From positions 1 to 57,901 of the IMG/VR virus record IMGVR_UViG_3300010042_000197: a stretch of DNA of 57,901 nucleotides; one strand, written 5' to 3'. Below, piece after piece: positions 8,097-56,029 of the stretch; within the stretch, counting starts at the first letter, position 1, and the number at the start of each line of letters is the position of its first letter. The stretch comes from a virus. The position numbers were made by a program, and so were the translations under genes. Below the pieces are notes generated by a model. That model did no database searches. It saw nothing but the letters and a program-made list of their open reading frames with translations, and had not been told where the DNA came from.

Positions 8097-8099
8097 GGC

Positions 8100-14138: not shown

Positions 14139-15195
14139 GGGGCCGCTCCGGGTCCTCGTTCTTGGTGTTGTGCGAGAGGAAGCCCACCGTCTGGTAGGTG
14201 TGCGCGCCGGCCACGGTGATGCGCACCACCGGGCCCCGCCCGGCCGCCTCCGCGCAGGCCACCACGCCCGGGCGCTCGCCGACGAGGCGCATGCCCGCAT
14301 CCAGGTGCCGCAGCTCCTCCCATGCGGCCTCAGTGCGCACGCGGTGGTTGTACGTGCCCACCAGCTCCCGGCCGTCCTCCAGCACCAGGCGCCAGCACTC
14401 CGCCTCCAGCGTGGAGGCGTGGGAGACGGGGTAGTCGCCCCACTCCAGCGTCACCTCGTCCTGGGTGCGCACCCACGCGCCCACGCGCACGTCACCCGCG
14501 GGCACCTCGCGGCCGTCCGAAAGCAGAATGGGTACCCACGGCGCCGGGCACCCTCCGCCCACGGGCCCCTGCCCTCCCGGGCCGTGCTGCCCTCCCGCGC
14601 CTCCGCCGAAGCCGCCGCCCGCGCTCCACTCAGTGGAGATGCCGGCGGACACCACGCAGCTCCCCACCACCATTTCCCCGTAGCAGAGCGGCACCGGGTG
14701 GCCCTGGGCCAACGTATTCACGGGCCCGTTGAAGACGTAGTTGGGCTGGGCGTCAGGCTTCTCCAGTGGCCCCGTGGCCGGGGGCGGTTTGAAGAGGAGC
14801 TGCGCGGCGCCTCCCACCATGAGGCTGCTGCCCAGGGCGATGAGCTGCCCGCCCACCGCGCCGTAGTCGTAGACGGAGAGCACCGCACCGCCAGCGATGA
14901 GCACCGCCCCCAGCACCACCTGGAGGACGCCCGCCTGCTTCGCGCCCGCCAGCGCCGGCAGAATCGTGATGCGCTTCCCCGTGGTGACGCCCAGCTCCTC
15001 GGCGCCGACGTCGCGCTCTCCGACGAGGACGTGGTAGCCGGGAGCGCTGTTCTCCGCGAGGTAGCGGCTGAAGCCCTCGCAGACCGCGCAGAGGGCGCGC
15101 ACCGCCTCCGCGGGCGTGGGCACGCCCAGCTCCAGCGTCCACTCCCGCCCGAAGCGCTGGCCCAGGGGCCCGCCGAGCACCACCGTCGTCAGCAT
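14122..15195 (-). CDS. I: tail assembly protein I with C-terminal Hint domain
   Basis: 357 aa from an ATG at 15195 overlapping the K stop by 7 nt. Residues 1-95 match the beta-grasp (ubiquitin-like) region of lambda I-type proteins. Two hydrophobic segments (about 100-150) and a conserved NTLAQGHPVPLCYGEMVVG stretch, also typical of the family, follow. Then comes a Gly/Pro linker and a Hint domain from Cys216. Lambda I is about 223 aa, so removing the Hint domain would leave a normal-sized protein (215 aa plus a 14-aa tail). I acts with K and J in tail-tip assembly. JAB-domain K and ubiquitin-like I are a known phage pairing. Confidence 0.9.
   Translation of the reverse strand: MLTTVVLGGPLGQRFGREWTLELGVPTPAEAVRALCAVCEGFSRYLAENSAPGYHVLVGERDVGAEELGVTTGKRITILPALAGAKQAGVLQVVLGAVLIAGGAVLSVYDYGAVGGQLIALGSSLMVGGAAQLLFKPPPATGPLEKPDAQPNYVFNGPVNTLAQGHPVPLCYGEMVVGSCVVSAGISTEWSAGGGFGGGAGGQHGPGGQGPVGGGCPAPWVPILLSDGREVPAGDVRVGAWVRTQDEVTLEWGDYPVSHASTLEAECWRLVLEDGRELVGTYNHRVRTEAAWEELRHLDAGMRLVGERPGVVACAEAAGRGPVVRITVAGAHTYQTVGFLSHNTKNEDPERPHDEAP
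14167..14550 (-). other. Hint (intein-like) domain 2, in tail protein I
   Basis: 128 residues, Cys216 to Asn343 of the I homologue. All standard splicing residues are present: Cys1, a TYNH block (Thr and His of the N3/B block), penultimate His, terminal Asn, and Thr as the +1 residue. The 14-residue C-extein (TKNEDPERPHDEAP) overlaps the start of J at the DNA level. It is clearly related to Hint domain 1: both begin CPAPW-PIL--DG and share LVLEDGRE and LSHN. Confidence 0.85.
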
Positions 15196-15914
15196 AGGGT
15201 GCGATGCCGCACAACCTTCCGAGTCACCCGTGCCCAGAAGCCGCTGTACGTCTCCCTCTTGGAGAGCGAAGCCTGGAGGTGGTGGAGGACGACGTCCGCG
15301 CCCAGGTACACGCCTGCGTGGTTGGGGACCTTCGCGCGCAGCTGCATGAGGAGGACGTCGTGCTGACGCAGCGACTGGCCGGTGACGTCGACGAAGCCCG
15401 CCTTCTCGTAGCCCTCCAGGTAGAGGTTGGCGCCCTTGGCCCACCAGTCGTCGGGGCGCTCGAAGTCGGGCAACTCGAGCCCCAGCGTCTCGCGGTAGTA
15501 GTCGCGGATGAGGCTGAAGCAGTCCAGGACGCCGTGGGAAAACTCCCGTCCCACCAGGGGTGCTCTGTAGCCCGAGGGGTACAGCACCTGCCAGTGCCCC
15601 ACCGGCACGTTGACGATGAGCCAGGGCAGGCCCCAGCGCTCGCACATGACGCGGTCCGCCTCGCTCGGCTCCGGGGAGGCGTTCGGGTGCGAGTGCACCA
15701 CCGCCACCACCTCCCCCTCCGCCTCGGCGCTGGCGAAGTCCTCGGGCGCCAGGTGGAAGTGGGCCTGGCCCTCGGCGAGATTGCGGCAGGGCCGATACGC
15801 CAGCTCGCCTGCGGCGCGCACTACGAGGCCGCAGGACTCGCGGGGAGCCTCCGCGCTGGCGTGCTCCAGGGCGGCGATGACTGGGGCACAAGGCAACGCG
15901 AAGCCGGATATCAT
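15189..15914 (-). CDS. K: tail tip protein K: JAMM plus NlpC/P60 peptidase
   Basis: 241 aa from an ATG at 15914, which has a GGGGA SD 9 nt upstream; an ATG at 15929 is an alternative without SD. The N-terminal JAMM/Mov34 domain has the Glu in RESCGLVV and the HxHx7SxxD motif in HSHPNASPEPSEAD. The C-terminal NlpC/P60 domain has a Cys in LDCFSLIRDYY and a His in NHAGVYLG. This two-domain fusion is the hallmark of lambda K, which acts in tail-tip assembly and is thought to open peptidoglycan. The gene precedes I and J, but it is separated from its usual partner L by about 3 kb of inserted genes. Confidence 0.93.
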   Translation of the reverse strand: MISGFALPCAPVIAALEHASAEAPRESCGLVVRAAGELAYRPCRNLAEGQAHFHLAPEDFASAEAEGEVVAVVHSHPNASPEPSEADRVMCERWGLPWLIVNVPVGHWQVLYPSGYRAPLVGREFSHGVLDCFSLIRDYYRETLGLELPDFERPDDWWAKGANLYLEGYEKAGFVDVTGQSLRQHDVLLMQLRAKVPNHAGVYLGADVVLHHLQASLSKRETYSGFWARVTRKVVRHRTLC

Positions 15915-16062
15915 ACCAATAATCCCCATTTCGGGCGCACGGCGAACCGCACCAACTTCACCCGCCCAGGGGACAAATTCCGAGCCGCTCAGAACAAACT
16001 ATCGGTCTGACATCGACAGCCACACCAATAGACACACCCCTTCCTCGATGCGCGAAGGGTGG

Positions 16063-34738: not shown

Positions 34739-35494
34739 CTACTTCTTCAGCCCCTTGGAAATGCGATCCAGCGGGGTCAGCTTCGTACTCCCGGGAATCC
34801 CTCCCGAGTTCGTCCCCGGCGGCGTCCCGCCGCCCGAGGAACCCGTGCCCTTGAAGGCACGAGCGAAGCGCGGATCCTTCTTGAGCTCCAGGACGTACTC
34901 TTCAACCGTCATGGGGCTGCCCGACTTGCTGTCGCGAGGGTTGCCCTTCTCGTCAGTAATTCGGACCAAAAACTCGCCGTCTTCCTCCACCAAAGTCACG
35001 TTGGGCGCGACGATTGGTAAGAGAAGATCGACAGCTCCTTCATTTTTCACGAGCGCGTCTCGGACAGCGGACTCGGCGATGCGGGTGTGGAGAACGGACG
35101 TCAGCCGCTTCACCTCGGCATCTTTCTCGCCCAGGGTCTTGGTGTGGTTCGACTCCAGCGTGGTGCGCTGCTTCTCCCACGCCTCCGCGCCCTCCTTCCC
35201 CTTTCGCGCCTCGGCCAGCTCGGCGCGCAAGTCGGCCAACTGCCTCTCGACATCCTCCGGCGCCTTCCCCAGCTTCGTGAATCCGGCGAGCTGATTCTTC
35301 AGCTCCTTGCCGATGTCGCGCTCCTTCTTCAGCGTGTTGGCGAGGGCGGAGGTGTCCAGCCGCTTCGCCAAGTCACCGTCGAGGGTGAACTTCGGGGCCT
35401 CGCCCTCCGCGCCGTCCTTCTTCGCGTACAGCCCGCGGTACGTCTCGGGCACCTCGTCCAGCTTCTCCAGCTCCGGCTGCCACTCGAACGGCAT
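34739..35494 (-). CDS. capsid scaffolding protein
   Basis: 251 aa from an ATG with GAGGAGA upstream. N-terminus EWQPELEKLDEVPETYRGLY, a long coiled coil (about 55-140), a small C-terminal domain (EDGEFLVRITDEKGNP) and a Lys-rich end, as in GP20/DUF4355-like scaffolds. Immediately upstream of the capsid gene. The 168-bp gap to the capsid gene holds a second copy of a 15-bp motif from its 3' end (34685-34699 and 34792-34806). Confidence 0.87.
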   Translation of the reverse strand: MPFEWQPELEKLDEVPETYRGLYAKKDGAEGEAPKFTLDGDLAKRLDTSALANTLKKERDIGKELKNQLAGFTKLGKAPEDVERQLADLRAELAEARKGKEGAEAWEKQRTTLESNHTKTLGEKDAEVKRLTSVLHTRIAESAVRDALVKNEGAVDLLLPIVAPNVTLVEEDGEFLVRITDEKGNPRDSKSGSPMTVEEYVLELKKDPRFARAFKGTGSSGGGTPPGTNSGGIPGSTKLTPLDRISKGLKK

Positions 35495-35529
35495 GTGCGT
35501 CTTCTCCTCTCGTCCTGCGCGCGGGCCCG

Positions 35530-36747
35530 CTACAACTTCGCCCGCTTGAAAGCCGCGGCTTCCACCGCGTGCAGCTGCTCCAGCGTCAGCGTCTTCCCGC
35601 TGGCATCGGTGAAGCGCCCCAACGGCAAGCGGCCGTCGCGCCACAGCCGGGCGCGCGTGGGCCCGAGCACCACGTCCTGGAATGGCGTGGGCTGCTTCCG
35701 GAGCCACTCCTCGTAGGACAGGCCCTTGGGCACCTGGCCGACGTTCTCCCGCGTCCACTTGTCGCGCTGCCGGCCAATGGCCGCGCGCCGCTCCGCCTCC
35801 GACATGCGCGCCCAGCGCGCCTCGCCGGCCTTGGCCTTCGCGTCCGCGCGGAAGTCGATGTCCCGCTGACGCCTTGTGCGTGTGTCCGTGACAGAGGGCC
35901 TGTCTCCCACCATTTTCACGCCGTCAATGACTGGCGACGTGGTTGTGCGACAGCCTCGGTGGAAAGGAGGACGGCGTCCGTCGCGCACGGGGAACACCTT
36001 CCCGTCCAGCGCCATGCACCCCAGCGTGGTGCGGCCATCGAGGGTGGCCACCATGCGGACGGACTGGACGATGTCTGCGTTCGCCTTGAACACCTCCTCC
36101 CGGGCCTGGGTGGCGACGTGGCTGGTGGCGGTGCGAATCACCGACTCCGCGTTGCGCCGGCTCGTCTCCAGGATGCCGTTGGAGTAGCCCTCGGCTCGGG
36201 TGCCCATGACTTCGCGCACCATCTGCTGCGTCGTCTTTCCCTCCACCACGCCCTGACGCACGACACGCCCCAGCCTGTCCACGTCGGCGGGGGCGAGGGC
36301 GTCCGCCCAGTCCTTCAACACGTGCCCCTCGAAGGGGCGGGAGAAGGCGGCCGCGCGCAGCACCTCCGCGGAGGGCGTGGCCACGGACAGCTCGACGATG
36401 AGCGTCTCCTGCAGCACCGCCGCCTGCCACCTGGCCTCGTGCAGCGCGAAGGCGCCAAGCTCCTCCGTCATGAGGCCCATCGCCGTGCCGTACGCCTCGG
36501 CGCGCACGCCGCCCACCCTGGCCAGCATCTCCTCCAGGCGCTTCGTAACCTGGGGCCCGGCGTCATACCCGCCCGCCGCCTCGATGCGGGACAGGCGCTT
36601 CGTCAGCTCGGCTTCCAGGTCCTCCTCGGACTCGTTGAGGACCTCCACCACGCGCCGAACGAGGCCCGCCTTGTAGCGCTCGACCTGCACCCCATGAGCA
36701 ATGGAGCGCTCCAGCAGCTCCTCGTTCATCGTCGGGCCGGCGCTCAC
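35530..36747 (-). CDS. MuF/SPP1 gp7-like head morphogenesis protein
   Basis: 405 aa from a GTG at 36747 that overlaps the upstream stop by 4 nt (GTGA); an ATG at 36729 is an alternative. A long helical N-terminal half and a C-terminal MuF-type core: RNAESVIRTATSHVATQAREEVFKANADIV, then CMALDGKVFPV and a PPFHRGCRTTTSPV motif. MuF-type proteins are minor head proteins ejected or bound near the portal. The C-terminal extension after the core is short and shows no toxin domain. Confidence 0.88.
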   Translation of the reverse strand: MSAGPTMNEELLERSIAHGVQVERYKAGLVRRVVEVLNESEEDLEAELTKRLSRIEAAGGYDAGPQVTKRLEEMLARVGGVRAEAYGTAMGLMTEELGAFALHEARWQAAVLQETLIVELSVATPSAEVLRAAAFSRPFEGHVLKDWADALAPADVDRLGRVVRQGVVEGKTTQQMVREVMGTRAEGYSNGILETSRRNAESVIRTATSHVATQAREEVFKANADIVQSVRMVATLDGRTTLGCMALDGKVFPVRDGRRPPFHRGCRTTTSPVIDGVKMVGDRPSVTDTRTRRQRDIDFRADAKAKAGEARWARMSEAERRAAIGRQRDKWTRENVGQVPKGLSYEEWLRKQPTPFQDVVLGPTRARLWRDGRLPLGRFTDASGKTLTLEQLHAVEAAAFKRAKL

Positions 36748-36845
36748 CAGCAGCCCCAGGGAAGGCAGTCGTAGGACCCGACGGCGGTCTCCACCCGGAC
36801 GTCCGTGTCGGAACTCGACGTGGCTATGAGGGTGGGCCCGCTCAC
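36744..36845 (-). CDS. 33-aa peptide in the head operon
   Basis: 33 aa from a GTG at 36845. Both ends are GTGA overlaps: its start overlaps the stop of 36842-37183 and its stop overlaps the GTG start of the MuF-like gene. The product ends in GSYDCLPWGCW with two Cys. The double coupling argues that it is translated. The function is unknown. Confidence 0.5.
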   Translation of the reverse strand: MSGPTLIATSSSDTDVRVETAVGSYDCLPWGCW

Positions 36846-37183
36846 CGTCCGGCGCCGTCCTCTGACGCTGGCACCGTCCCCTGACGCGGCGCGAACTCCA
36901 GGCTCGCGCTCCACATGTCCGATGGGTCGGCCATGTACCGAATGCGCCGGACGAGGTAGCGCGTGGAGCCAGGCCCGTTCCGGAGCAGCAGAAAGTGGCC
37001 TTCCTCGATGCCGCAGCCCCACCCCATGGCAGTGAGGTTCCGCCCATCGTCGCGGACCTCCTGAATGACGTAGTCGTGCCCCCAGTACCTCTCCGTGTAG
37101 TCGTGCGTCTTCGGGGAGTTGGAGAGTGCGCGAAGAGCCGCCCCCGTCGCCTTCAGCAACGCATCCAGGCCGAGAGCCCTCAC
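36842..37183 (-). CDS. small head-module protein
   Basis: 113 aa from a GTG at 37183 overlapping the previous stop by 4 nt. Helical start, then a beta-rich part (YWGHDYVIQEVRD, HFLLLRNGPGSTRYLVRRI). Unknown family; conserved position before the MuF-like gene suggests a virion or assembly role. Confidence 0.68.
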   Translation of the reverse strand: MRALGLDALLKATGAALRALSNSPKTHDYTERYWGHDYVIQEVRDDGRNLTAMGWGCGIEEGHFLLLRNGPGSTRYLVRRIRYMADPSDMWSASLEFAPRQGTVPASEDGAGR

Positions 37184-37431
37184 GCCTCGCCCCCTCGCAT
37201 GCACTGGCACTCGGTGGAGTCCGTCCAGGTGGGGCACCCCGTCTCCTCCGGGTGCCACCGGGCGCCGGCGAGCACCATGAAGAACTCGCTCATGTGCCGG
37301 ACGAAGAGCGTGTCGCCCCAACGGACCATGCGGCCCGATGGAACAACTGCTGCAGAGACCTGGACAGACACACCGGACAGGAGGCGCCCAGCATCGGGAA
37401 CCTCGGGCTGAACGGCCGCGCGGAAGCTCAT
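37180..37431 (-). CDS. small protein with a C-terminal Cys cluster
   Basis: 83 aa from an ATG at 37431. Beta-rich centre (SVQVSAAVVPSGRMVRWGDTLFV) and a Cys-rich end (ETGCPTWTDSTECQCM). It is the first gene of a chain of four coupled by GTGA overlaps ending in the MuF-like gene, and the last phage gene before the 37.4-39.9 kb insertion. Confidence 0.62.
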   Translation of the reverse strand: MSFRAAVQPEVPDAGRLLSGVSVQVSAAVVPSGRMVRWGDTLFVRHMSEFFMVLAGARWHPEETGCPTWTDSTECQCMRGGEA

Positions 37432-37589
37432 GCGCCCGAGGCTGGCCTACGTCGAGGACGCCGTCCGGGCGGGGCACTAGGGACTCACGCCGCTGGGCTG
37501 ACCCGGGTTGCCCGCAGGAATCGAATCCCGGAGGATGCTGCCAGCCCGGTCGCCCCCCTCTCGCACACCTCCACGAGAGAAAATCGGCA

Positions 37590-38030
37590 ATGAAGAGCTT
37601 GAAACTGTGGCTGTTGGCCTGTGCGGTCAGTCTCGCGATGGGTTGTGGTGGCACGCCGACCGATATGGCCAGCGAGGGCAAGGAGATGAGTGTTTCCTCG
37701 CAAGAACTGACGGGATGTACCGCCACCTGTGCGCTGGGCACGGTCAGCTGCCCGTCGTCGACTCAAACCTGTTCCGCGACGAACAACGTGGGCGTGACAT
37801 GCGACGGCGTCGCAATTGCCTGCCCACCCACGGGATGCACGCAATGGATGATGAGCTGTGCTGTCATGCAGACCTTGCTCTGCTCCGAGGCCGAGACTAT
37901 TCCATGCTGTAGGGATGACTCGGAAATCGGTGAGTGCATTTGCACCGAATTCGGGCGACGCCCCCCGGTGCTTCTAATACTACCCGGTCAGATGAATCGA
38001 GCGTTGGCGCCCCGTGTTGATGAGGCATGA
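37590..38030 (+). CDS. Cys-rich lipoprotein cargo
   Basis: 146 aa from an ATG at 37590. Signal peptide with lipobox (SLAMGCGG) and about 14 Cys in the mature part (TATCALGTVSCPSS, CEAETIPCCRDD-like spacing), typical of myxobacterial surface lipoproteins. It is the first gene of the inserted island in the head operon. Confidence 0.72.
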   Translation: MKSLKLWLLACAVSLAMGCGGTPTDMASEGKEMSVSSQELTGCTATCALGTVSCPSSTQTCSATNNVGVTCDGVAIACPPTGCTQWMMSCAVMQTLLCSEAETIPCCRDDSEIGECICTEFGRRPPVLLILPGQMNRALAPRVDEA

Positions 38031-38317
38031 CACCCGCAAAGTTACGCAAGCTCGACCGGGAACTGAACGAGTTTCTGGACTCAATGACGGTGGGACTGGG
38101 CCGCACCGAGGGACGTCGCGCCCTCGGCGGCTACGTCACGGACCTGCTGCTGGACGGAGAGCGCAAGAGCATCGAGCCCATGGCGGCCCGGCTCGTTGAG
38201 GAGCCGGGCCAGACGGAGGCCATGCGCCAAAGGTTGCAGCAATGCGGGTCCGGCGCGAGCTGGGAGGATTCCGAAATGCGACGGCGCCTGGCGCAGCAGC
38301 TTGAGCGAGAGCTGCCC
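38027..38317 (+). pseudogene. IS701-family transposase N-terminal fragment
   Basis: About 97 codons starting with MTPAKLRKLDRELNEFL and including LLLDGERKSIEPMAARL and MRQRLQQCGSGASW, the N-terminal region of IS701-type DDE transposases. The catalytic domain is missing: the frame runs on into unrelated sequence. It is therefore a decayed insertion-sequence remnant. Confidence 0.72.
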
Positions 38318-38438
38318 CCCGTATATGGAGCGGGACTTCGGCAGGTACCTGGAATGCGGAGTGCTGGCGCACGGCTTCGCGCGGGTGCGCTGCGAGAGTT
38401 GCAAGGACAAACTGCTCGTCGCCTTCTCGTGCAAGGGG
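38316..38438 (+). pseudogene. IS91-family transposase zinc-finger fragment
   Basis: In another frame directly after the IS701 piece, 41 codons read PPYMERDFGRYLECGVLAHG then VRCESCKDKLLVAFSCKG. This is the N-terminal zinc-binding region of IS91-type transposases. The rest is absent. The join of two unrelated transposase fragments shows repeated insertion and deletion at this site. Confidence 0.7.
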
Positions 38439-38519
38439 CTGACTGCGTTGACTCGGTCGCCCACCGGCAGTATCTTGCGCTATCCGCAGTCTTTTACATT
38501 GTTTGATGAATGGGGGAAC

Positions 38520-38927
38520 ATGTCAGGTTCAGCGCTTGAATCACGTCGTATCATCGACATTTCGGAGCTCGGCCAGAACCCCGGCCTCTTTTCCTGCCCG
38601 CAAAGCCAGACGACCCAGTTTTTTTTCTTCGGGGTGCAGGTGAGTGGGTTGGCCGTGGGGACGACGAAGGTGACCATCAATCTGCTCTCCCCATTGCAGC
38701 TTGATGGCGACACGCAGGGGACTAGCACGACTGAGGTCCCAATAGTCGTACTGGCAGCGGCGGCCGTCATACCTGGTAAGGGTGGGGCCATCGTGGGTAC
38801 GGTCGATGTCACCTTCACGACCGACTTCAACGCACAGACCGTGACGGCGAAGCTCACGGGCAGGTACCTTTTCTCTTCCCTAGCGTACACGGGTATCGTC
38901 GCTTCCTGGGCCAACTCGGCCACGTAG
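38520..38927 (+). CDS. beta-rich cargo protein, unknown
   Basis: 135 aa from an ATG preceded by GGGGGA. Alternating hydrophobic strands (QFFFFGVQVSGLAVGTTKVTINL, in two pieces) suggest a small beta-sandwich. No signal peptide seen. Lies after the transposase fragments in the inserted island. Confidence 0.6.
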   Translation: MSGSALESRRIIDISELGQNPGLFSCPQSQTTQFFFFGVQVSGLAVGTTKVTINLLSPLQLDGDTQGTSTTEVPIVVLAAAAVIPGKGGAIVGTVDVTFTTDFNAQTVTAKLTGRYLFSSLAYTGIVASWANSAT

Positions 38928-39063
38928 CCTGCGGTGCGCGCCGCCGACGGGCCCGGCCGCCCATCGACCTGCGACATGGTGATGGGCTTACGCATCCCAG
39001 AGCCAAAAGGCCCAGTCACCTACCGCGCACCCCATGGAAGCGCGGCCTGTCCACCCGCTTGGC

Positions 39064-39287
39064 TCACTGCTCGGGCGGCCCCTGCAGTTCCTCGCCGGGC
39101 GCGGGCTGCTGGGCACCTGACTCCACGAGCTGCGCCACGGCGTACCGCCAGCCCTGCTCCCGCGCCCTCACCTTCTGGGCCGCGCGGGCGCTGAACACCG
39201 TCCCGTCGGGCAGTAGTGAAGGGTGAGCGGCGTCGCACGCCCCCGGTACACCGCGTTGTGCGCCTGATAGATGTTCGGGGATGACAC
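39064..39287 (-). pseudogene. frameshifted small head-operon gene
   Basis: A GTG at 39287 opens SSPNIYQAHNAVYRGRATP, which after one missing base continues in the next frame as LPDGTVFSARAAQKVRA and ends GPPEQ at 39064. The whole would be 74 aa. It has the same strand as the head operon and lies inside the island, so it may be a phage gene broken when the island arrived. Confidence 0.45.
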
Positions 39288-39332
39288 GTCAGGTTTGCGT
39301 GTGGACGTGTCAATGCCCACGCTGACACGTCA
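39282..39332. repeat. three copies of TGACACGTC
   Basis: Direct copies at 39282-39290 and 39323-39331 (41 bp apart) and an inverted copy at 39304-39312. The outer copies are part of the near-palindrome TGACACGTCA. The spacing of about two plus two helical turns suggests a regulator binding site near the starts of the flanking genes. Confidence 0.45.
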
Positions 39333-39495
39333 GCTCGAAGTTCTGAACGGTATCTCCAGACGAGCAGCGAATGACTATTCTCCTGGCATCTCGCTTGCTG
39401 TAGTCCCGGACCGACGTTCCTTCACCAAAGGCTGGCTGCAGACCACCACGCCAAAGGTCGCGTCGCCGTCCATTTTCCGCCTGGAGCTACAGACA

Positions 39496-39837
39496 ATGCG
39501 TATCCATCAAGCGGCCTTGATCATTCTCGCCCTGCAGGTTCTCGCCCCCTCCACCGCATTCGCTGAATTCTGGTGCGAGTGCCAAGGCGAGGGAAAGCTC
39601 ACCACAGCAGAGGCCAGCCTCACGTCATCAGTGGCCCAAGGCCTCTCTGGATGGGCAAACTTCAAGGTCGATAAGATTAGATTTTCAAGCTGGGGCCGTC
39701 TCTGGAATAATCCGGATACCGCCTGGACTGAATGCAAGCATTGCTTGTCCAGATGCGCTAACGAAAGGGCCCCCATTGGAGTATGCAAGCAAAAAGCCAG
39801 CCTTGCTTGGTTTGAAGCCAGCTACAGGCGTGAATGA
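39496..39837 (+). CDS. small secreted Cys-rich protein
   Basis: 113 aa from an ATG at 39496. Signal peptide (AALIILALQVLAPSTAFA) and a mature part with WCECQG, CKHCLSRC and a further Cys, likely disulfide-bonded. Composition is less GC-rich than the phage genes. Last gene of the island. Confidence 0.62.
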   Translation: MRIHQAALIILALQVLAPSTAFAEFWCECQGEGKLTTAEASLTSSVAQGLSGWANFKVDKIRFSSWGRLWNNPDTAWTECKHCLSRCANERAPIGVCKQKASLAWFEASYRRE

Positions 39838-39992: not shown

Positions 39993-40288
39993 GTGGCACC
40001 TCCGCCCCTGGCGAACACCTGCGGCGTGACGAGCGCTGTGATGAACACTTCCCGCGTCAGCACCATGTCGCCGTCCAGCACCAGAGCCCGGCACTGCCGG
40101 TGGAAGAGTCGGGACAGAGAGTCCCGCGTCCATTCCCGCAGGACACGGCGCATCTTCCTCACCCCGCCCCGGTTCCCCTGGACGTCGAAGGCCGCGCGGG
40201 CCCGCGAAGGCACCAGGCACGGCAGCTCCGAGACGCGTTCCCCGCCTCCCAGCTCGTAGTGAACGAAGTGCCACTCCAGCGCCCTCAC
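39980..40288 (-). CDS. small protein after the portal
   Basis: 102 aa from a GTG overlapping the portal stop by 4 nt. It starts with ALEWHFVHYELGGGERVSELPC and ends with an antiparallel strand set. Synteny indicates a virion or assembly protein; no family recognised. Confidence 0.68.
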   Translation of the reverse strand: MRALEWHFVHYELGGGERVSELPCLVPSRARAAFDVQGNRGGVRKMRRVLREWTRDSLSRLFHRQCRALVLDGDMVLTREVFITALVTPQVFARGGGATCRA

Positions 40289-41841
40289 GCGACACCTCCA
40301 GCAGCGACACCATGCCCGCCGCCAGCGGGGGGCGGCTGCGGGGACGTCGTGCGGCCGGGAGGCCGGGGCTCGTCCTTCGGCGCCGAGCGAAGCGTGCCCA
40401 ACCTCGGCCCCTCGGCCGCCAGCTCCTCCTCATTCACTCCCACGTCGAAGTCCGCGGAGAGAGTCCCCCGCCGCTTGAGCTCCTTCAGGTAGTTCGGGCG
40501 GGAGAGGTCTTGCGCCTGGCGCGTCTTGAAGAGCACCTCCAGCCCCTGCGCGTCCCCCTCCTCCACGCCGAAGTCCGTGTGGACGGACACCTTCAGCTGG
40601 TCGTCCGGTACCTCCAGGGACACCCACCGGGCCGCGAAGTGGAAGGCCAGGGCCAGCGAATCGCCGAAGCGGCGGGCCATGGACTGGAGCTTCGAGTAGC
40701 TCTGGCCAGTGTTGATGTCCTTCTCCGTCGCCGTGGTGTTGCCCTTCCGCCTGACGACCAGCTCGATGCTGAGCGCCGCCATCTGGTCCTCCAGGCGCTC
40801 CAGGTCCTTCGCACCGGCCTCGATGGCCGCGCCGCCATGCTCGACGTAATAGAACTTCCCCTGGGGGTTGGTGGTGGTGAGCAGCGAGTGGGGGCCAATG
40901 GTGATGCCGGACCGCGCACCGGGACGCCCGAGGAACTCCACGTCCTCGGCGCTCATCCCTTCCGTGCTGGTGCGCTCTTCTCGCGGCGACTCCTCCGTCA
41001 CGCCCGAGGCCGCCAGGATGGGGAACCGCGCCACGGTGAGGATGTTTCGCTGGTCACTGGCGGACTGCCAGTGCTCCAGGTTCTTCTCCGCCAGGGACAG
41101 CAACGGCGGGCGGATGAGCATGAAGCCCTTCGGCTTGCCCGCGTACCAGGTGACGAGGGGGATGAAGCCCAGCGTGTTCTCCCCGCCATCCACCAGCGTC
41201 CAGGTGTCCTTCCCCTCCCGCTCGAAGAGTTTCCACGCCTCCCGCTCGATGACGCGCACCCGCTCCACGGCGGCTTCCTCGTAGCCAGACACCTTCGTCA
41301 CCACCTCGCGGATGCGGACCTGCGTCAGCACCTGGGCGCCGCCCTCCACGGTGGCGTAGGCAGCCAGGAGCGCGTCAGCAGGCACGTGGACGAAGTAGGG
41401 GCGGATGTCCGCCTCCACCTCGTCCGCCCGCGTCTGCACCCGGGCCCTGTCCACCTTGGGGAAGTCGACGAGGATGTGCGTCAGCCCGTTGGCCAGCCCA
41501 TCGGTGAAGACGTTGCGGGCCCAGGACGTCAGGTCGTTGCCCTGCCTGTCCACGTCGCCCACGAGGTTGTGCAGCTCCTCGGGCGCGGAGTCCGCCAGCA
41601 CCACCGGCTTGGTGAAGGGCATCTCCGCCAGCGTGGAGAGGGACGTCTCGAAGTAGTTGAAGAGGAAGCTGCGCTGGAGGCGCTCCTTGTAGGCCTCGTC
41701 GGACTCGCGCGCGTGCCGAGGCAGGTACGTCGTCGCAGCGGCGCGCATGGCCTCCGTGCCCCCCTGGAGGGCCTTCACCATGGCCCAGTGCGGCTCCATC
41801 GCCTTGTAGGCGCTGCTCTTGTTGCTCACGTCGGACGTCAT
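40285..41841 (-). CDS. portal protein (DUF4055-like)
   Basis: 518 aa from an ATG at 41841 with GAGAGGG upstream. Contains the helical wing, the RSFLFNYFETSLSTLAEMPF segment, and a long stem region (LERLEDQMAALSIELVVRRKGNTTATEKDI, in pieces) typical of portals annotated DUF4055. It follows terminase and the JAMM/Ntn genes. Forms the dodecameric DNA gate. Pro/Gly-rich C-terminus probably disordered. Confidence 0.9.
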   Translation of the reverse strand: MTSDVSNKSSAYKAMEPHWAMVKALQGGTEAMRAAATTYLPRHARESDEAYKERLQRSFLFNYFETSLSTLAEMPFTKPVVLADSAPEELHNLVGDVDRQGNDLTSWARNVFTDGLANGLTHILVDFPKVDRARVQTRADEVEADIRPYFVHVPADALLAAYATVEGGAQVLTQVRIREVVTKVSGYEEAAVERVRVIEREAWKLFEREGKDTWTLVDGGENTLGFIPLVTWYAGKPKGFMLIRPPLLSLAEKNLEHWQSASDQRNILTVARFPILAASGVTEESPREERTSTEGMSAEDVEFLGRPGARSGITIGPHSLLTTTNPQGKFYYVEHGGAAIEAGAKDLERLEDQMAALSIELVVRRKGNTTATEKDINTGQSYSKLQSMARRFGDSLALAFHFAARWVSLEVPDDQLKVSVHTDFGVEEGDAQGLEVLFKTRQAQDLSRPNYLKELKRRGTLSADFDVGVNEEELAAEGPRLGTLRSAPKDEPRPPGRTTSPQPPPAGGGHGVAAGGVA

Positions 41842-42080
41842 GGGCGGGCCCTCTCTGCGTGGCCGGGGCGGCGGAGGTGGACGTACTGCCAGGCCCGGAG
41901 GGACAGCCGGGACAGGCGTCGGGAGGTGCGGTCCGCGAGGTAGGCGTAGAAGCGCAGCACCAACACGGTGGAGTCGCGCCGGGCCGCGCGCGGCAGGCCT
42001 CGCCCGCGCAGGCGCCAGGTGGAGGCGGCACGGCGGCGTCCGGCCACCGGCGGCGTGGGTGCGCGGCAGGTGGCGCTCAC
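41838..42080 (-). CDS. small basic protein before the portal
   Basis: 80 aa, about a quarter Arg. 4-nt overlaps at both ends tie it to the Ntn-hydrolase upstream and the portal downstream. One amphipathic hydrophobic helix (VLVLRFYAYLADR). It may bind DNA or another head component; unknown. Confidence 0.6.
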   Translation of the reverse strand: MSATCRAPTPPVAGRRRAASTWRLRGRGLPRAARRDSTVLVLRFYAYLADRTSRRLSRLSLRAWQYVHLRRPGHAERARP

Positions 42081-42613
42081 CCGGACACCACCCGGAAGGG
42101 GCCACGCACGCCCGCACTGAGTCGCTCAGCCGCGCGCAACGCCATGCGCACCCGGGACTCGGGCTTGAGGTGCCAGGACGCGAAGAGGGCCCCACGCGCA
42201 GCCTCGCTGCCACACCCCACGGCGTCGTAGCCGTCACGGGCCTCGCCCACCTGGTAGTCGGCCTCGAGGCGGAAGAGGTGTCCCGCCACGCCGACGAGAA
42301 AGGTGCCGCCCAGCTCCTGCTCGCTCTGCTTCGTCGCCCAGCCCTTGTCCTTCAGCGCCGCGCGCACGGCGTCGACGAAGTCCACCACCATGTACCGGCC
42401 CAGCGCCCCGGGCTTCCTCGGCGGCGGTGGCGGGCTGAAGGCATGCTGGAGCAACTGCCCCATGCGGTAGGACGAGGTGAAGCCAATGAGGAAAGGGCCG
42501 TTGGAGAACACCTTCACGTCCGAGCGGACGGTGAGCTCGTACCCACCGACTCCAGCGCTGTCCCCGCCCAGGTACACGCGGCCCTTCGCCACCACGCCAG
42601 CAATGCACGTCAC
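42077..42613 (-). CDS. proteasome-type Ntn-hydrolase (HslV/beta-subunit fold)
   Basis: 178 aa from a GTG at 42613. After removal of the initiator Met, Thr becomes residue 1 (TCIAGVVAKGRVYLGGDSAG). Asp falls at position 17 and Lys at position 33, exactly the Thr1/Asp17/Lys33 catalytic set of proteasome beta and HslV subunits. The GGDSAG turn and a following VKVF strand match the family. No ATPase partner is encoded nearby. It overlaps the JAMM gene by 4 nt and lies between terminase and portal. A role in head maturation or in host protein turnover is possible; processing of the scaffold is an attractive inference because no classical prohead protease is visible. Confidence 0.87.
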   Translation of the reverse strand: MTCIAGVVAKGRVYLGGDSAGVGGYELTVRSDVKVFSNGPFLIGFTSSYRMGQLLQHAFSPPPPPRKPGALGRYMVVDFVDAVRAALKDKGWATKQSEQELGGTFLVGVAGHLFRLEADYQVGEARDGYDAVGCGSEAARGALFASWHLKPESRVRMALRAAERLSAGVRGPFRVVSG

Positions 42614-43113
42614 GTTGTCACCTCCTGCGCCATGCGGCGGACAGCGGACTCGCCGCGCACCAGGGTGAAGAGAGAGGCCATGGGGGCACCCATGTCGGCC
42701 GGGCCCGCCAGCAGCAGGTGCAGCACCTCGGGCCGGGAGGGCGTCAGCGCCCCTTGAATGGAGGCCACGTCCGTCGCGGACAGCACCGCGGGGCCGCCCG
42801 GGTGGGTGTGCCAGTCGCCCAGGTAGCCCAGCCGGGGGTGGATGCGCGCCACCAGCTGGGTGTCCCGCGCCCCGTCCGACTCGTAGCCCAGGCGGCTGCG
42901 ACGCGCGCGCCTTCCCGGGCCCGTCAGCGCCAGCACGTGGGCCTCGCCGTCCACCACCTGCCCCAGCAGCAGCCCGCCCGTCTCCAGCGGGGCGCGCACG
43001 CGGGCCAAGCGCTGGGCCTTCGCCAGCACCGCACTCCGCACCCAGACGCGGTACGGGCCGGACACGTACAGGGCGGCACCTGGTGCCGGTGCCATGGCGC
43101 ACGCGACGCTCAC
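42610..43113 (-). CDS. JAMM/Mov34 metalloprotease
   Basis: 167 aa from a GTG at 43113 overlapping the terminase stop by 4 nt; an ATG at 43095 is an alternative. JAMM motif complete: Glu in ETGGLLLG, and HxHx7SxxD in HTHPGGPAVLSATD, the zinc site of Rpn11/RadC/AMSH-type peptidases. A stand-alone JAMM domain here is distinct from the K JAMM-NlpC fusion. Being coupled to a proteasome-like peptidase recalls the Rpn11-proteasome pairing of eukaryotes and archaea. The substrate is unknown; possibly a head protein or a beta-grasp protein such as I. Confidence 0.87.
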   Translation of the reverse strand: MSVACAMAPAPGAALYVSGPYRVWVRSAVLAKAQRLARVRAPLETGGLLLGQVVDGEAHVLALTGPGRRARRSRLGYESDGARDTQLVARIHPRLGYLGDWHTHPGGPAVLSATDVASIQGALTPSRPEVLHLLLAGPADMGAPMASLFTLVRGESAVRRMAQEVTT

Positions 43114-44726
43114 CGGTAGCTCCCCACCTTGAAGGTGTCGGCATCCTTGCCCAGCATCAGCTCCGTCAGTGCCCACACCGCGGCGTCCATGCGGTTGGGG
43201 CTCCAGGTGGACTCTCCCGGCACCCAGGTCGTCATCTCGTCCTCGAGGGCAGGCAGCAGGCCCACGTGGTGCACCTTCCCGCGCTCGTACAGGGCGGCCA
43301 CGGGCTCGGCGCGCTTCGCCTTGCCGCGAGAGGCCGTCACCACCTTCACGTTGACGGGCTTGCGCATCTCCTTCGCCTTGCTGCGAATGGTGGTCTCCAC
43401 CATGTCGCCGCCGAAGTTCTTCTCGCCCACCACGGCGTCGGCCACCTCCCGCTCGTAGGCCGCCAGCGCCTTCGTGGCCCACGCCTCGGCGGAGAGCTTC
43501 CCAGAGGCGTCCAGCCACACGTAGGCGTGCCCGTTGGAGGCCTTGCCGGCGCAGACAATACCCACCTCATCGTTGCTGGGGCCGTCCCCGCCTGCCGGGT
43601 CCACTGCCACCACCACGCGCACCATGGGCAGCGGCTTGCCCTCGGCGTCCACAGGCTTCGGCGCGCGCGTGTTCTCCAGCGTCTCCGGCGTCCACAGCGC
43701 GCCCACCGCCGCCGCCTTGAAGGCCTCCTCCACCGTCGCCGGGTACTCGCGCCGGAAGTCGGCCACGCCCTTCTCGAAGCCGGACACCTTCGAGCGGCGC
43801 CACGCCAGCTGCCCATCGTCCAGGGCGTAGCCGTGCACCTGGTGGCACAGCTCCGCGTACCGCACCTCCTCCGAGGTGCGCTCGAAGCCCGCGGGCACCG
43901 CCAGGCGGTACTCGTCCTGCCAGAACCACGGGATGAAGATGAGCTCGTACTCGTTCTCCCCCTTCTGCGCCGCGAGGCAGAGCCGGTAGAAGAGTCCCTG
44001 CGGCCCGTCGCTGGTGGACTCGAGGATGATTTCCGTCCCCGGCACGTTGCCCACGGCCTCCAGCACGCCGCGCATGTGGCCCGAGGCGTTGGGCCAGAAG
44101 GCGACTTCCGAGCCGTGGAAATACTGCAGCGTCGACGAGCGCCCCGTCCCCTTGCTCCCTGCGGTGCCCACCTTGTATCCAGAGGCGAGCTTGTCGAAGA
44201 GCAGCTCCTTCGCGTTGGACGCGCTCGTGGTGGGCTTCACGAGCGCCGGGCAGTGCTCGTGGTACGTCTTCGCCATCTTGAAGAGGTTCGCCGTCGCCGG
44301 GTCCTCGTGCGTCAGGATGTAGGCGCTCACGCCCTTCCGGTGCGTCACCCGCCAGTAGAAGCGCGCCTCCACGTACGTGCTGCACCCCTGCTGCCGCCCC
44401 TTGAGGATGATGGCGCGCACCCTCCCCGTCTTCCGGAGCTGCGCCTCCAGCCTCTCGTGCAGGTACAGCTGGGCCTTGTTCAGCTTCAGCTGCGGCAGCT
44501 CCGCCCCAGACACCTCCTTCGGGCGAATCCGCAGGCACTTCTCCGCGTAGTGGGGGAAGTCGTCCTTCAGTCGCTGGCGGATGGCCTTCTCTCGCGGCGA
44601 CAGCTCCTTCTGCACCTCCTGCGCCGCCGGCCGCCCACCACGCCCCCTCAGCTCGCGCGGCTGACGGCGCCGAGCCACCTGCGACCGGAGGGAGGGCTTC
44701 TTCCGCGCCTGCCGGGCCGCGCTCAC
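43110..44726 (-). CDS. terL: terminase large subunit
   Basis: 538 aa from a GTG overlapping the small-subunit stop. ATPase domain: Walker A-type ILKGRQQGCST (about residues 107-117), a Walker B-type ILEST region (about 235), C-motif nearby. Nuclease domain: VVAVDPAGGDGPSNDEVG (acidic metal ligand, about 355) and NFGGD and DAAVWAL at later acidic positions. It packages DNA into the prohead through the portal. Confidence 0.93.
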   Translation of the reverse strand: MSAARQARKKPSLRSQVARRRQPRELRGRGGRPAAQEVQKELSPREKAIRQRLKDDFPHYAEKCLRIRPKEVSGAELPQLKLNKAQLYLHERLEAQLRKTGRVRAIILKGRQQGCSTYVEARFYWRVTHRKGVSAYILTHEDPATANLFKMAKTYHEHCPALVKPTTSASNAKELLFDKLASGYKVGTAGSKGTGRSSTLQYFHGSEVAFWPNASGHMRGVLEAVGNVPGTEIILESTSDGPQGLFYRLCLAAQKGENEYELIFIPWFWQDEYRLAVPAGFERTSEEVRYAELCHQVHGYALDDGQLAWRRSKVSGFEKGVADFRREYPATVEEAFKAAAVGALWTPETLENTRAPKPVDAEGKPLPMVRVVVAVDPAGGDGPSNDEVGIVCAGKASNGHAYVWLDASGKLSAEAWATKALAAYEREVADAVVGEKNFGGDMVETTIRSKAKEMRKPVNVKVVTASRGKAKRAEPVAALYERGKVHHVGLLPALEDEMTTWVPGESTWSPNRMDAAVWALTELMLGKDADTFKVGSYR

Positions 44727-45316
44727 TCCAACTCCCCCAGCGCTTCCTCGTGGCTCTTCTTCACCTCCGTCAGCTCCACCTTGTCGGTGAAGAGCTTCAG
44801 GTACTTGCCCAGCAGTTCCAGCGCCTTGTCCTTCGGCCAGAGCTTCAGCTTCGTCACCGTGCCGACCTGGACGCGCTCCTCCCCCTTCCCCGCGAAGAGC
44901 TCTTCCACCTCGATGCTGGAGATGGCCCGGCGGAAGTCCTCGGGCATGTCCTTCAGCATGAGCACCCCACCGCGCTCGCCCACCCCCTGCCCGATGTCGG
45001 AGAACGCCAGGCGCCGCAACTCGCGCAGCACCTCTGACACCTCGACCCGGACCTCGTCCTGGACCGCCTCCTCGAGCGCGGCTTGGCCAGCCTCCACGGC
45101 CGCCAGAACCTTGGCATTCCTCAACAGGCGGGAGCCCTGCGACTCCGCCGTCTTCGCGGAGTAGCCGGCGCGAATGGCGGCCTGGGCCGCGCAGGAGTCC
45201 TTCAGGTACTCCCGGACGAAGGCGCGCTGCTTGGGCGTCAGCTCGCGCGAGGCATCGCCCGTGCCGTCGTCCGGCTCCGGGGCGTCAGGCGGGGTGGTGG
45301 GGGGCTTTCGTGCCAC
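44723..45316 (-). CDS. terS: terminase small subunit
   Basis: 197 aa from a GTG at 45316; a longer form from 45379 would include the conserved leader described separately. Typical TerS helix-turn-helix: ELTPKQRAFVREYLKDSCAAQAAIRAGYSAKTAESQGSRLL, given here in outline (residues about 25-65), then an oligomerisation helix. Recognises the packaging site and recruits TerL. Confidence 0.88.
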   Translation of the reverse strand: MARKPPTTPPDAPEPDDGTGDASRELTPKQRAFVREYLKDSCAAQAAIRAGYSAKTAESQGSRLLRNAKVLAAVEAGQAALEEAVQDEVRVEVSEVLRELRRLAFSDIGQGVGERGGVLMLKDMPEDFRRAISSIEVEELFAGKGEERVQVGTVTKLKLWPKDKALELLGKYLKLFTDKVELTEVKKSHEEALGELE

Positions 45317-45357
45317 GGCGCCGAGTGTTGGCGCGGGTGGGGACGGTGTCCGGGTCG
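45314..45357 (-). repeat. 44-bp leader repeat, copy 1 (upstream of terS)
   Basis: 44 bp ending at the GTG of terS. Without gaps, 31 of 44 positions match copy 2 by eye. Shared cores include CCCGGAC, CGTCCCC and CTCGG. Read in frame it encodes TRTPSPPAPTLGAV, and several differences from copy 2 are at third codon positions. Confidence 0.65.
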
Positions 45358-45459
45358 CCGACCAACGACGGGCTGTCAACCGGGAGCCACCCGGAGTGGG
45401 CTACAGTCTTCTCGGTTGGGTCACCCACGCGGCAAAGCCGCATTGCCCGGACGAGTTGC

Positions 45460-53182: not shown

Positions 53183-53548
53183 CTACGGCTCCTCGGGGTG
53201 GACGGGCATGCCCTCAAGAAGGGGCGACGGAGGCGCGGAGCGCAGGTGGAGGCAGGCGGAGCCAGCGAGCAGCGGAAGGCGCAAGCTCAGGCGGGGCGGT
53301 GGCGTCCACGCGCAGGGCGGGTGGATGCAGCACGCGGGCGGCACCGGCTGGTCCTTGCAGCCCGCCCGCCAGTTCACGCCGTGGCGGCACGTCGGCCAGG
53401 GCGCCTGGTACTTCCTGTGGGCGGACGCGCCGCCGGCAGTCGCCGCGTGGAAGGACACCGTCCCCGCGTCCGTGACGTCTCCGCCCATCCGCATGGCACC
53501 GCAGCGCGGGCAGCGCTCGTATCGTGTCGGGTACAGGCACCGGCTCAC
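53183..53548 (-). CDS. zinc-finger protein
   Basis: 121 aa from a GTG overlapping the methyltransferase stop. ERCPRCGAMRM gives a CxxC knuckle; further CRH, CCIHPPC residues may complete a site. Pro-rich C-terminus. Unknown. Confidence 0.6.
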   Translation of the reverse strand: MSRCLYPTRYERCPRCGAMRMGGDVTDAGTVSFHAATAGGASAHRKYQAPWPTCRHGVNWRAGCKDQPVPPACCIHPPCAWTPPPRLSLRLPLLAGSACLHLRSAPPSPLLEGMPVHPEEP

Positions 53549-55173
53549 GCCGCCCTCCGGCCCGCGAAGGCGTCGCCCAGGTTCGCGCGCACCACTGCTT
53601 CGGCCGCCTCCGGGCACACGCTGTTTCCGATGAGTCTGACCTTCCCTGCCTTGCTGGAGACGGCACTCAGGTCGTAGCCCTCGGCGTACTTCCCGAACTG
53701 GGCGCGGAGCAACTCGTGGGGCTCCAGCATCCGAAGGCCGATGTCGACAATTTGGTGTTCGACACCCTCCACGAGCACCAAACCCATGCGCCTGACGGCG
53801 GTGATGGTCCGCAGCGGCGCCGTCAGGCGCTGCCCCTCGCTCCCGGACCCGTAGTAGGCGGTGAGGAAGGCGCGGACCTCCGCGACGTGGTTGCCGCCCG
53901 CGGTGATGGTGCCGAGCGGCTCCTCCACCGAAGGCGCGCCCGGCTGGTTCGCTGCGGTGCCGCGGAACGTCGCAAGCGTCACCGCAGCCAGGGCGTGGTG
54001 GTCCTGGGTGGTGATGGTGTCCAACGGCCCATCCGCCCGGATGCCGGGCGTCACATGCCCGCCGTACCCCTTGGCGATGAACGGGGCCACCAACTGGTGC
54101 TCCTGGAGGAACGTCTGGACGAGGGCGTGCTTGCGACCCTGCGCGACGACGGTGCCCAGCGGCGCGTGCAGATTGAGCGTCCGCGCCTCCTGCCCAGGTC
54201 GCTCGCCGTACCCCGCCTGGATGAGCGTGGGCGCCACCAGGGCATGGCCTCTGCGCGTCGCCGTCACCGTGGACAGCGGCGCGTCGATGGATTCACTCCT
54301 GTCCACCAGCCCGCCGTGGTTCACCTTGATGATGAACGGGCGCGGATTCTCGAACACGTACTTCCGGATGCCTTGCGCGACCCGCCACAGCGTCTTCTTC
54401 ACGAGAGGCTTCTTGCGCCCGAAGATGGAGCGAACCGGCAGGCTCCAGTCAATGCACTCCGCCGCGGTGTGCATAGGCAGGAGGCTGGGGCCGTGCGTGG
54501 GCTCGGGCCAGACGATGGGCTGGCCGTCGCGCCGCGCGACGAGGAAGAGACGCTTGCGATTCGTCGGTGCGCCGTACTTGCTCGCGGTGAGCAGGCGCCA
54601 CTCGATGTGGTAGCCAAGCAGATCGAGCTGGCCGCGCCACGTATCGAAGTACTCGCCCTTCCGCTCCGGGATGGGCATGTCGATGAGCTTGTCCCCCGCC
54701 TTCAGGATGCGCCCATCCGGCATGACGTGGCCCAGCTCGTAGAGCGGCCCCCACCCGACGAACTCCTCCACATTCTCCAGGAAGATGATTTCCGGCGCGA
54801 CGTCGCGCGCCCAGCGCACCACGACGTGCGCCAGCGAGCGGATGTTCTTCTGGCGGGGCTTCGAGCCGCGCGCCTTCGCGAAGTGGGTGCAGTCCGGGGA
54901 CGCCCAAAGGGCCCACACCTTCCAGGACCTCAACGGGCGTCCGGACCTGGCGCGGTGCTTTCGCAGCAGCTTCACCACCTCACGAGGCGGCGTCTTCCAG
55001 ATGTCCTCGGCGAGGCACAGCGTGTTGGGGTGGTTGGCCTTGTAGACGCGCATGGCCAGTGGGTCGTGGTTGAGAGCCACATCCGGGTCCCGCCCGACGG
55101 CAGCGGCAACCCCGGTGGACGCGCCGCCACCGCCCGCGAACAGGTCCACAATGATGCCCTGGCTGCAGCTCAT
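53545..55173 (-). CDS. C5-cytosine DNA methyltransferase
   Basis: 542 aa from an ATG at 55173. Motif I DLFAGGGGAST, motif IV region SPDCTHFAKARG (catalytic Cys in PDC instead of PCQ), motif VI ENVEEF, motif VIII-like RKRLFLVARRDG, and C-terminal motif X IGNSVCPEAAEAV. Between VIII and X about 250 residues hold repeated PL-[TG]-T-[IV]-T strands followed by HALV (APLSTVTA, APLGTVVA, GPLDTITT, EPLGTITA, APLRTITA), probably a repetitive target-recognition region. No matching restriction gene is visible, so it is probably an orphan enzyme protecting phage DNA. Confidence 0.92.
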   Translation of the reverse strand: MSCSQGIIVDLFAGGGGASTGVAAAVGRDPDVALNHDPLAMRVYKANHPNTLCLAEDIWKTPPREVVKLLRKHRARSGRPLRSWKVWALWASPDCTHFAKARGSKPRQKNIRSLAHVVVRWARDVAPEIIFLENVEEFVGWGPLYELGHVMPDGRILKAGDKLIDMPIPERKGEYFDTWRGQLDLLGYHIEWRLLTASKYGAPTNRKRLFLVARRDGQPIVWPEPTHGPSLLPMHTAAECIDWSLPVRSIFGRKKPLVKKTLWRVAQGIRKYVFENPRPFIIKVNHGGLVDRSESIDAPLSTVTATRRGHALVAPTLIQAGYGERPGQEARTLNLHAPLGTVVAQGRKHALVQTFLQEHQLVAPFIAKGYGGHVTPGIRADGPLDTITTQDHHALAAVTLATFRGTAANQPGAPSVEEPLGTITAGGNHVAEVRAFLTAYYGSGSEGQRLTAPLRTITAVRRMGLVLVEGVEHQIVDIGLRMLEPHELLRAQFGKYAEGYDLSAVSSKAGKVRLIGNSVCPEAAEAVVRANLGDAFAGRRAA

Positions 55174-55349
55174 GACCGGCTCCGCGTGAAGGCGATGGCG
55201 CCGAGGAGTCCGGCGCCCAGGAAGAGGACGAAGGCCACCGCGGCGAAGGCGATGGCGTGCGAGAGGTGCGGCTCGCTGTGCGCGGCGCGCGCGGCCAGGC
55301 CAGAGCCACCCAGGGCGATGGCGCCGAGCACCATGAGGCGACAGCTCAC
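55170..55349 (-). CDS. small two-helix membrane protein
   Basis: 59 aa from a GTG overlapping the previous stop by 4 nt. Two hydrophobic helices (LMVLGAIALGGSGL and FAAVAFVLFLGAGLLGAIAF). Early-operon membrane peptide; possible exclusion or host-membrane role. Confidence 0.55.
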   Translation of the reverse strand: MSCRLMVLGAIALGGSGLAARAAHSEPHLSHAIAFAAVAFVLFLGAGLLGAIAFTRSRS

Positions 55350-56029
55350 CGGGGCACCTCGCGGAGTTGCGCCACACCGGCGCGCACCTGGTCGAGCACG
55401 CCGGCGGGGAGCTGCCAGAGCCCCTGCGCGCCCTTGCACGGCACCGGGCTGGGCAGCCGCACGACGTTGTCGAGGCGCCAGCCGAAGGGGCCGACAAACC
55501 AGGGCGAGTCGGACGACGTGATGACGGCGCCGAGCTGCGCGACGGCGACGATGACGCCGCTGCGATCCTCGTCCTTCGCGGGCACTCCGACGTGCCGGGA
55601 GTCCACCCGTCCGCGAATCCAGGGCACGGCGGAGGCGTCCCACTTCTGGCCCGCGTGAATGGCCAGCCAGCCACCAACGGCCGCGCGCGGCGCCTCCCAG
55701 GTGCGGTTCTCCACGTTCTTGCCGGCGCAGGCCACAGCCCACGCCCACGGGCGGATGAGCGTCACGCCGCGAGGGACGACGTCGACGGGGACAGCGGCGA
55801 GGCGCGCCTCGTAGCCCACGCTCCCGCGAGGCGGCGGCATCCCGTGTTCGGGCGACTTCCTGCCGCTCGCCTTGAACTCGCACGCGTCACAACGGCTGGT
55901 GTCCCCGTCCATGGCGAACCAGCCCTCGCAGTGAGCATCCACCCAGCGAAGGCAGGCCGAGCACCGGAAGAGGTCCGCATCGGGCAGGCCCACCGGATGG
56001 TTCAGGCTCTCGCAGCGGTGATCACTCAT
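55346..56029 (-). CDS. ASCH-domain protein with N-terminal zinc finger
   Basis: 227 aa from an ATG at 56029. Cys cluster FRCSACLRWVDAHCEGW and SRCDAC near residues 21-50, then an ASCH-like domain: GVTLIRPWAWAVACAGKNVENRTW, GWLAIHAGQKWD, in the usual order. ASCH domains are RNA-binding or base-processing related; here with DUF5131 next door. Overlaps the DUF5131 gene by 8 nt. Confidence 0.8.
   Translation of the reverse strand: MSDHRCESLNHPVGLPDADLFRCSACLRWVDAHCEGWFAMDGDTSRCDACEFKASGRKSPEHGMPPPRGSVGYEARLAAVPVDVVPRGVTLIRPWAWAVACAGKNVENRTWEAPRAAVGGWLAIHAGQKWDASAVPWIRGRVDSRHVGVPAKDEDRSGVIVAVAQLGAVITSSDSPWFVGPFGWRLDNVVRLPSPVPCKGAQGLWQLPAGVLDQVRAGVAQLREVPR

Follow-up and report, generated by a model that had tools for sequence, protein, structure and literature searches.

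The best explanation of two adjoining genes in a myxobacterial prophage, where they form part of the late packaging operon, is that they encode independent accessory peptidases, both presumably catalytically competent: a Cap3-like JAMM isopeptidase (JAMM) and an N-terminal-Thr hydrolase homologous to the proteasome beta subunit (Ntn), the latter being neither a head-maturation protease nor a dedicated partner of the former. We give this reading a probability of about 0.45. The DNA analysed, here called the window in its whole length, is a linear IMG/VR virus record of 57.9 kb with a GC content of 68%; it is a lambda-tailed myxobacterial prophage, and its nearest relatives turned out to be prophages of Myxococcus eversor and Corallococcus. 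The enzyme families of both proteins are already known, and the Ntn group has been described but is uncharacterised.

Genes and proteins

The late genes lie on the minus strand in the order terminase small subunit (TerS), terminase large subunit (TerL), JAMM, Ntn, an 80-aa ORF, and portal, followed downstream by the genes for a MuF-like head protein, the scaffold, the capsid, and a lambda-like tail (Table 1). Around JAMM and Ntn the operon is tight, with stop-start overlaps: Ntn starts with a GTG at 42613, sharing 4 nt with the end of JAMM, and a strong Shine-Dalgarno sequence (core GGAGG, 7-nt spacer) precedes this start. An earlier note on this DNA had described two overlapping genes between terminase and portal and no visible classical prohead protease, and this description was borne out; no such protease was recognised in the window, and neither JAMM nor Ntn matched families of this kind. 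Likewise, no AAA+ unfoldase family was recognised among the 59 ORFs of the window, and no E1, E2, or Cap2 in the window. The 80-aa ORF, for which neither PHROG nor Pfam gave a family match, varies among relatives, is conserved in six of them (L002, L003, L004, L015, L021, and L022), and has a dN/dS of ~0.2.

Table 1. Features of the late operon, with window coordinates
Feature	Coordinates	Strand	Remarks
Terminase small subunit	44723..45379	-	PF03592 E 7.7e-34; phrog_51
Terminase large subunit (TerL)	43110..44726	-	PF17289 E 4.7e-13; phrog_38
JAMM/JAB isopeptidase, Cap3-like	42610..43113	-	GTG start 43113; alternative ATG 43095
Shine-Dalgarno AGGAGGTGA of the Ntn gene	42618..42626	-	within JAMM coding end
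N-terminal-Thr (Ntn) hydrolase, proteasome-beta homologue, AAH/BPH/HslV type	42077..42613	-	GTG start, Met-Thr1
80-aa Arg-rich ORF	41838..42080	-	between Ntn and portal
Portal protein	40285..41841	-	phrog_145 E 5e-122; PF13264
MuF/SPP1 gp7-like head morphogenesis protein	35530..37047	-	phrog_241 E 5e-129; true start probably further in
Head scaffolding protein	34739..35758	-	phrog_206 E 2e-32
Major capsid protein, 306 aa	33650..34570	-	phrog_212 E 3e-66

The portal and MuF genes are separated by a stretch of about 2.5 kb (37338-39837) whose ORFs run on the plus strand, opposite to the late operon, and have starts resembling those of lipoproteins or secreted proteins; since portal and MuF are almost adjacent in a related prophage (L016), this stretch may be an inserted moron region. 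The window also holds a phage-type C5 cytosine DNA methyltransferase of 710 aa (53545-55677, minus strand). Close to where the tail genes end, a gene for an AHH-family nuclease (8100-8834) has an Imm11 immunity-like gene (7518-8096) immediately after it, and the two resemble a toxin-immunity pair (7518-8834, minus strand).

JAMM matched the Prok-JAB family (PF14464) with an E value of 1.3e-11, over the family cut-off, and its zinc-site residues E44, H102, H104, S112, and D115 were invariant in an alignment of 16 sequences, so that the complete JAMM site announced in the earlier note is present, in the E-(x)n-HxH-(x)7-S-(x)2-D form and in a predicted MPN fold. A profile of 18 sequences had its best PDB match in Cap3 (9ild, E 7e-20), with Rpn11 homologues at ~5e-6, and the AlphaFold2 model (pLDDT 89) was likewise closest in fold to Cap3 (TM 0.80/0.84; Rpn11, ~0.7). 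Of the Rpn11/JAMM kinship suspected before, the JAMM family thus stands, while the nearest relative is Cap3, ahead of Rpn11. The JAB models of PADLOC also matched (E 1.6e-16). We call the protein Cap3-like and do not file it as Cap3 because it scored under the NCBIfam Cap3 cut-off (NF050170; 31.7 bits vs 200) and no Cap2 or cyclase was recognised alongside; the search of the window recognised no Cap2, CD-NTase, or effector beside it. Its dN/dS was 0.41-0.66. A second, independent JAMM of the lambda tail K type, with Prok-JAB and NlpC/P60 domains, is encoded at 15189-15929 (minus strand), directly followed by an ORF positioned like that of tail protein I (14122-15195, minus strand); this ORF had no Pfam match at 0.01, and its C-terminal part resembles a putative intein/HINT block (CPAPW start, SHNT end).

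Removal of the Met from Ntn would turn Thr, the second residue, into the N-terminus (Thr1). In mature numbering, T1, D17, K33, and the oxyanion-hole G43 were identical in 96/96 aligned sequences, only rows with T at position 2 having been kept and the relatives having been fetched by patterns that covered residues 43-50 and included neither D17 nor K33; the agreement of Thr1, Asp17, and Lys33 with proteasome numbering, which had been pointed out before, thus extends to all these relatives. The protein has 178 aa, and its model (pLDDT 96, pTM 0.91), with helices at 49-58 and 71-89, has the HslV/proteasome (Ntn) fold that the earlier note had expected, matching BPH with a TM of 0.81 and HslV with 0.70; the nearest match among viral predicted structures had a TM of 0.93. 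The single sequence was not recognised by Pfam Proteasome (E 0.22; 11.6 bits vs a cut-off of 22.4), had no match in NCBIfam, and gave only chance matches to helicase in a phmmer search of the PDB. It did match PHROG 1040, "peptidase HslV family" (E 4e-20), and a profile of 12 sequences matched BPH (2.6e-5) and HslV (1.7e-4) in the PDB. The dN/dS of Ntn was 0.23-0.42. Since the sites are intact and the genes are under purifying selection, both peptidases are probably active.

Two phage-borne groups of proteasome homologues, AAH and PPH, have been described (Fuchs, Alva and Lupas 2021, PMC8665760). Judged by the published description, Ntn most likely belongs to AAH, since its length, helix H2, and host range fit. 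Two other assignments were rejected: PPH, which has ~140 residues and lacks the helix H2 present in the 178-aa Ntn, and HslV with a cryptic HslU, as no unfoldase family was recognised in the window.

Pairing and spread of the two genes

The order TerL-JAMM-Ntn-(80-aa ORF)-portal recurs in Myxococcus and Corallococcus prophages (L002, L003, L004, L017-L019, and L122), and in several distinct ones among them the JAMM and Ntn genes usually overlap or abut. This adjacency would suit a true module, something like Rpn11 and the 20S core in minimal form, in which JAMM would strip a ubiquitin-like tag and an Ntn ring would degrade the untagged protein. JAMM, however, is followed by portal with no Ntn in L015, L016, L020, L021, and L022, and is found without Ntn in G089 and G098 as well. 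The absence in L016 and L020 is at a precise junction, the JAMM and portal genes being 89-95% identical in nucleotides to those of L017 and L018. In L004, Ntn shares 71% of its nucleotides with that of the window and the flanking genes share 90-98%, which points to an allele swap with JAMM staying in place. Among 116 genomes of the order, JAMM was found at 7 places and Ntn at 9, where one Ntn copy is split and one of its two pieces contains a stop; the two genes adjoined at 5 places. No JAMM was found near Ntn in the other fetched Ntn loci, whether of viruses or of bacteria. As nearly all other Ntn loci are without JAMM and the window showed neither a recognisable E1 for tag conjugation nor an unfoldase, we regard such a module as very improbable.

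Because of the absence of Ntn from some relatives, the swap in L004, the few adjoining places, and the JAMM-free Ntn loci, the pair is a lineage-specific neighbourhood and not a conserved two-gene system. The coupling of the two peptidases proposed in the earlier note does not hold in general: they were seen paired in one myxobacterial prophage lineage only, and each also occurs alone. Ntn is an optional, exchangeable cassette, and JAMM a stable member of the prophage lineage, kept in every fetched member (most of which had been fetched via their JAMM or Ntn). One myxobacterial genome (L243 and L245; G084:C10) has a broken Ntn copy, split into two pieces of which one is interrupted by a TGA.

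Relatives of Ntn were found in Azospirillum, Rhizobium, Mesorhizobium, Streptomyces, Dactylosporangium, and Frankia and in phages, with matches in 202 INPHARED phage records. Some bacterial chromosomes carry Ntn outside recognisable prophage genes (e.g., Azospirillum L165 and the MAG L118), so its role may be a general one. These chromosomal copies and the optional character of the cassette would suit a lysogenic-conversion (moron) gene, Ntn helping the lysogen by protein quality control and playing no part in the lytic cycle. Speaking against this is the location of Ntn among closely packed late genes whose stops and starts overlap, as well as its common occurrence in phages that are probably lytic, such as the T5-like and 121Q-like ones; we consider this explanation improbable. 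One phage contig carries two tandem, divergent Ntn genes (L010:4431-5570), both with T1, D17, and a lysine near position 33, whose products could form a mixed ring.

Position relative to head genes

The earlier note had proposed that a mini-proteasome matures the head or clears the scaffold, and Ntn might, in a phage with no recognised classical prohead protease, be thought to mature the capsid or scaffold in its stead. Such a mini-proteasome was rejected on account of the absence of the cassette and its coexistence with U35 proteases. L016 and L020 have TerL, JAMM, portal, MuF, scaffold, and capsid genes in common with the carriers of Ntn, yet the cassette is cleanly missing from them. HK97-type prohead proteases of the classical kind, whose seed proteins PHROG confirmed, accompanied Ntn at 25 of the 119 non-redundant loci. 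In all five isolated phages inspected, Ntn lay outside the head genes, among DNA-metabolism or unknown ones: it adjoins thymidylate synthase and dihydrofolate reductase in Geobacillus E3 and the T5-like AAS21, and sits among other non-head genes in the Moorella, Psychrobacter, and Ochrobactrum phages. From the coexistence and the non-head positions it follows that Ntn is no general replacement for the prohead protease and is not restricted to heads. Furthermore, capsid (phrog_212) and scaffold (phrog_206) are separate genes in the window, and heads of the SPP1/P22 type generally release their scaffold unprocessed, which also counts against a substitute for the prohead protease; we judge this role extremely unlikely.

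A looser connection with the head is the main rival of our reading, although a rather unlikely one: JAMM, together with Ntn where present, might cleave a head or packaging protein or clear scaffold and assembly waste, a role resembling the one proposed for the JAB domain of lambda tail protein K, the processing of tail protein I (PMC1779556). Terminase or portal genes lie no more than 5 kb from Ntn at 47 of the 119 loci. JAMM is retained throughout the fetched lineage, with the bias of fetching by JAMM or Ntn mentioned above, and its relatives recur near terminase, portal, capsid, and head-protease genes of unrelated phages. Six distant viral relatives lie beside head or packaging genes, namely directly after TerL (L025), before TerL (L030), between the portal-type connector and capsid genes (L029), between portal and MuF (MW202482), next to a head protease (L026), and after Hc3 (L023). 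Against such processing stand the lack of Ntn in relatives with the same head genes, its coexistence with U35 proteases, its distance from the head genes in the large phages inspected, and the second JAMM (tail K, 15189-15929), which already serves the tail.

Single-domain Cap3-like JAMMs near terminase, portal, or capsid genes were thus seen in unrelated phages, and a general head-module isopeptidase is possible. A tblastn search of phage records with the window JAMM gave one match, and searches with two distant relatives gave none. Other distant JAMM relatives, on virus contigs, adjoin E1-type genes matching Cap2 (L027 and L213), as, judging by sequence, seems to be the case in L216, which agrees with the likeness to Cap3; these three loci look like defence cassettes, CBASS-like or 6A-MBL-like, carried by mobile elements.

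Proposed roles and comparison with known systems

A host-directed accessory role seems a better reading than head maturation, and among the options of the earlier note an attack on host defence is the most attractive, since JAMM is Cap3-like. Cap3 reverses the conjugates made by Cap2 (PMC11153139), and the Cap2 system can modify phage proteins, e.g., T4 fibritin (PMC10449767). By its likeness to Cap3, the most probable task of JAMM is to reverse ubiquitin-like conjugation in the host. As a zinc isopeptidase, it would cleave isopeptide or C-terminal bonds formed by a conjugation defence of the host (type II CBASS, Bil, or a relative), and we infer that, being expressed late, it would undo conjugate tags on phage proteins, so that new virion proteins would be protected or the cyclase disarmed. 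Ntn, for its part, would lose Met1 and probably form an ATPase-free peptidase ring like that of BPH, trimming or destroying particular unfolded or peptide substrates; the folds on which these proposals draw are predicted ones. Some points count against the counter-defence role. Several distant JAMM relatives lie beside head and not defence genes, which fits the processing of head proteins too; expression from a late operon would be late for disarming a cyclase; and, since Cap3 can aid as well as hinder CBASS (PMC11153139), a phage enzyme resembling it need not be an inhibitor.

It could also be imagined that Cap3-like isopeptidases of head operons strip ubiquitin-like tags of the host from virion proteins and that the optional myxobacterial Ntn destroys the host conjugation components so released. 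Such joint action, which we hold to be very doubtful, would amount to a phage counter-defence by de-conjugation and degradation. In the open-access literature searched, neither a phage JAMM adjoining a proteasome homologue nor a phage Cap3-like anti-CBASS enzyme turned up; an isopeptidase of head operons, should it act on CBASS or Bil conjugates, would thus be a counter-defence not found there. As for Ntn, AAH relatives are widespread in phages, and near-identical prophages with and without the cassette make its function directly testable.

Among known systems, Cap3 of type II CBASS (9ild) is the closest to JAMM: it is the best profile and fold match and shares the complete zinc site. The two have, however, only ~18% identity in the fold alignment, and Cap3 is encoded with Cap2 and a CD-NTase, neither of which was recognised near JAMM in the window. 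The JAB of lambda tail protein K is, like JAMM, a phage-encoded Prok-JAB peptidase, but JAMM has a gene to itself, with a single domain and no NlpC/P60. The AAH proteins share with Ntn the Group-I proteasome-like fold, T1/D17/K33, the Met-Thr start without a propeptide, a length of ~180 aa, helices H1 and H2, and a spread in many phages, alpha-proteobacteria, and Actinobacteria; the window Ntn stands apart in that it adjoins a JAMM gene in the late operon of a myxobacterial prophage. To our knowledge, no biological role is known for the AAH homologues. The nearest solved folds are BPH (5ovs and 5ovt) and HslV, which share Thr1, Asp17, and Lys33 with Ntn but only ~20% of the sequence. HslV differs in having a partner ATPase, HslU, of which none was recognised in the window, whereas BPH, which does without an unfoldase and is bound by epoxomicin at Thr1 (PMC5777263), resembles Ntn in having no unfoldase gene nearby.
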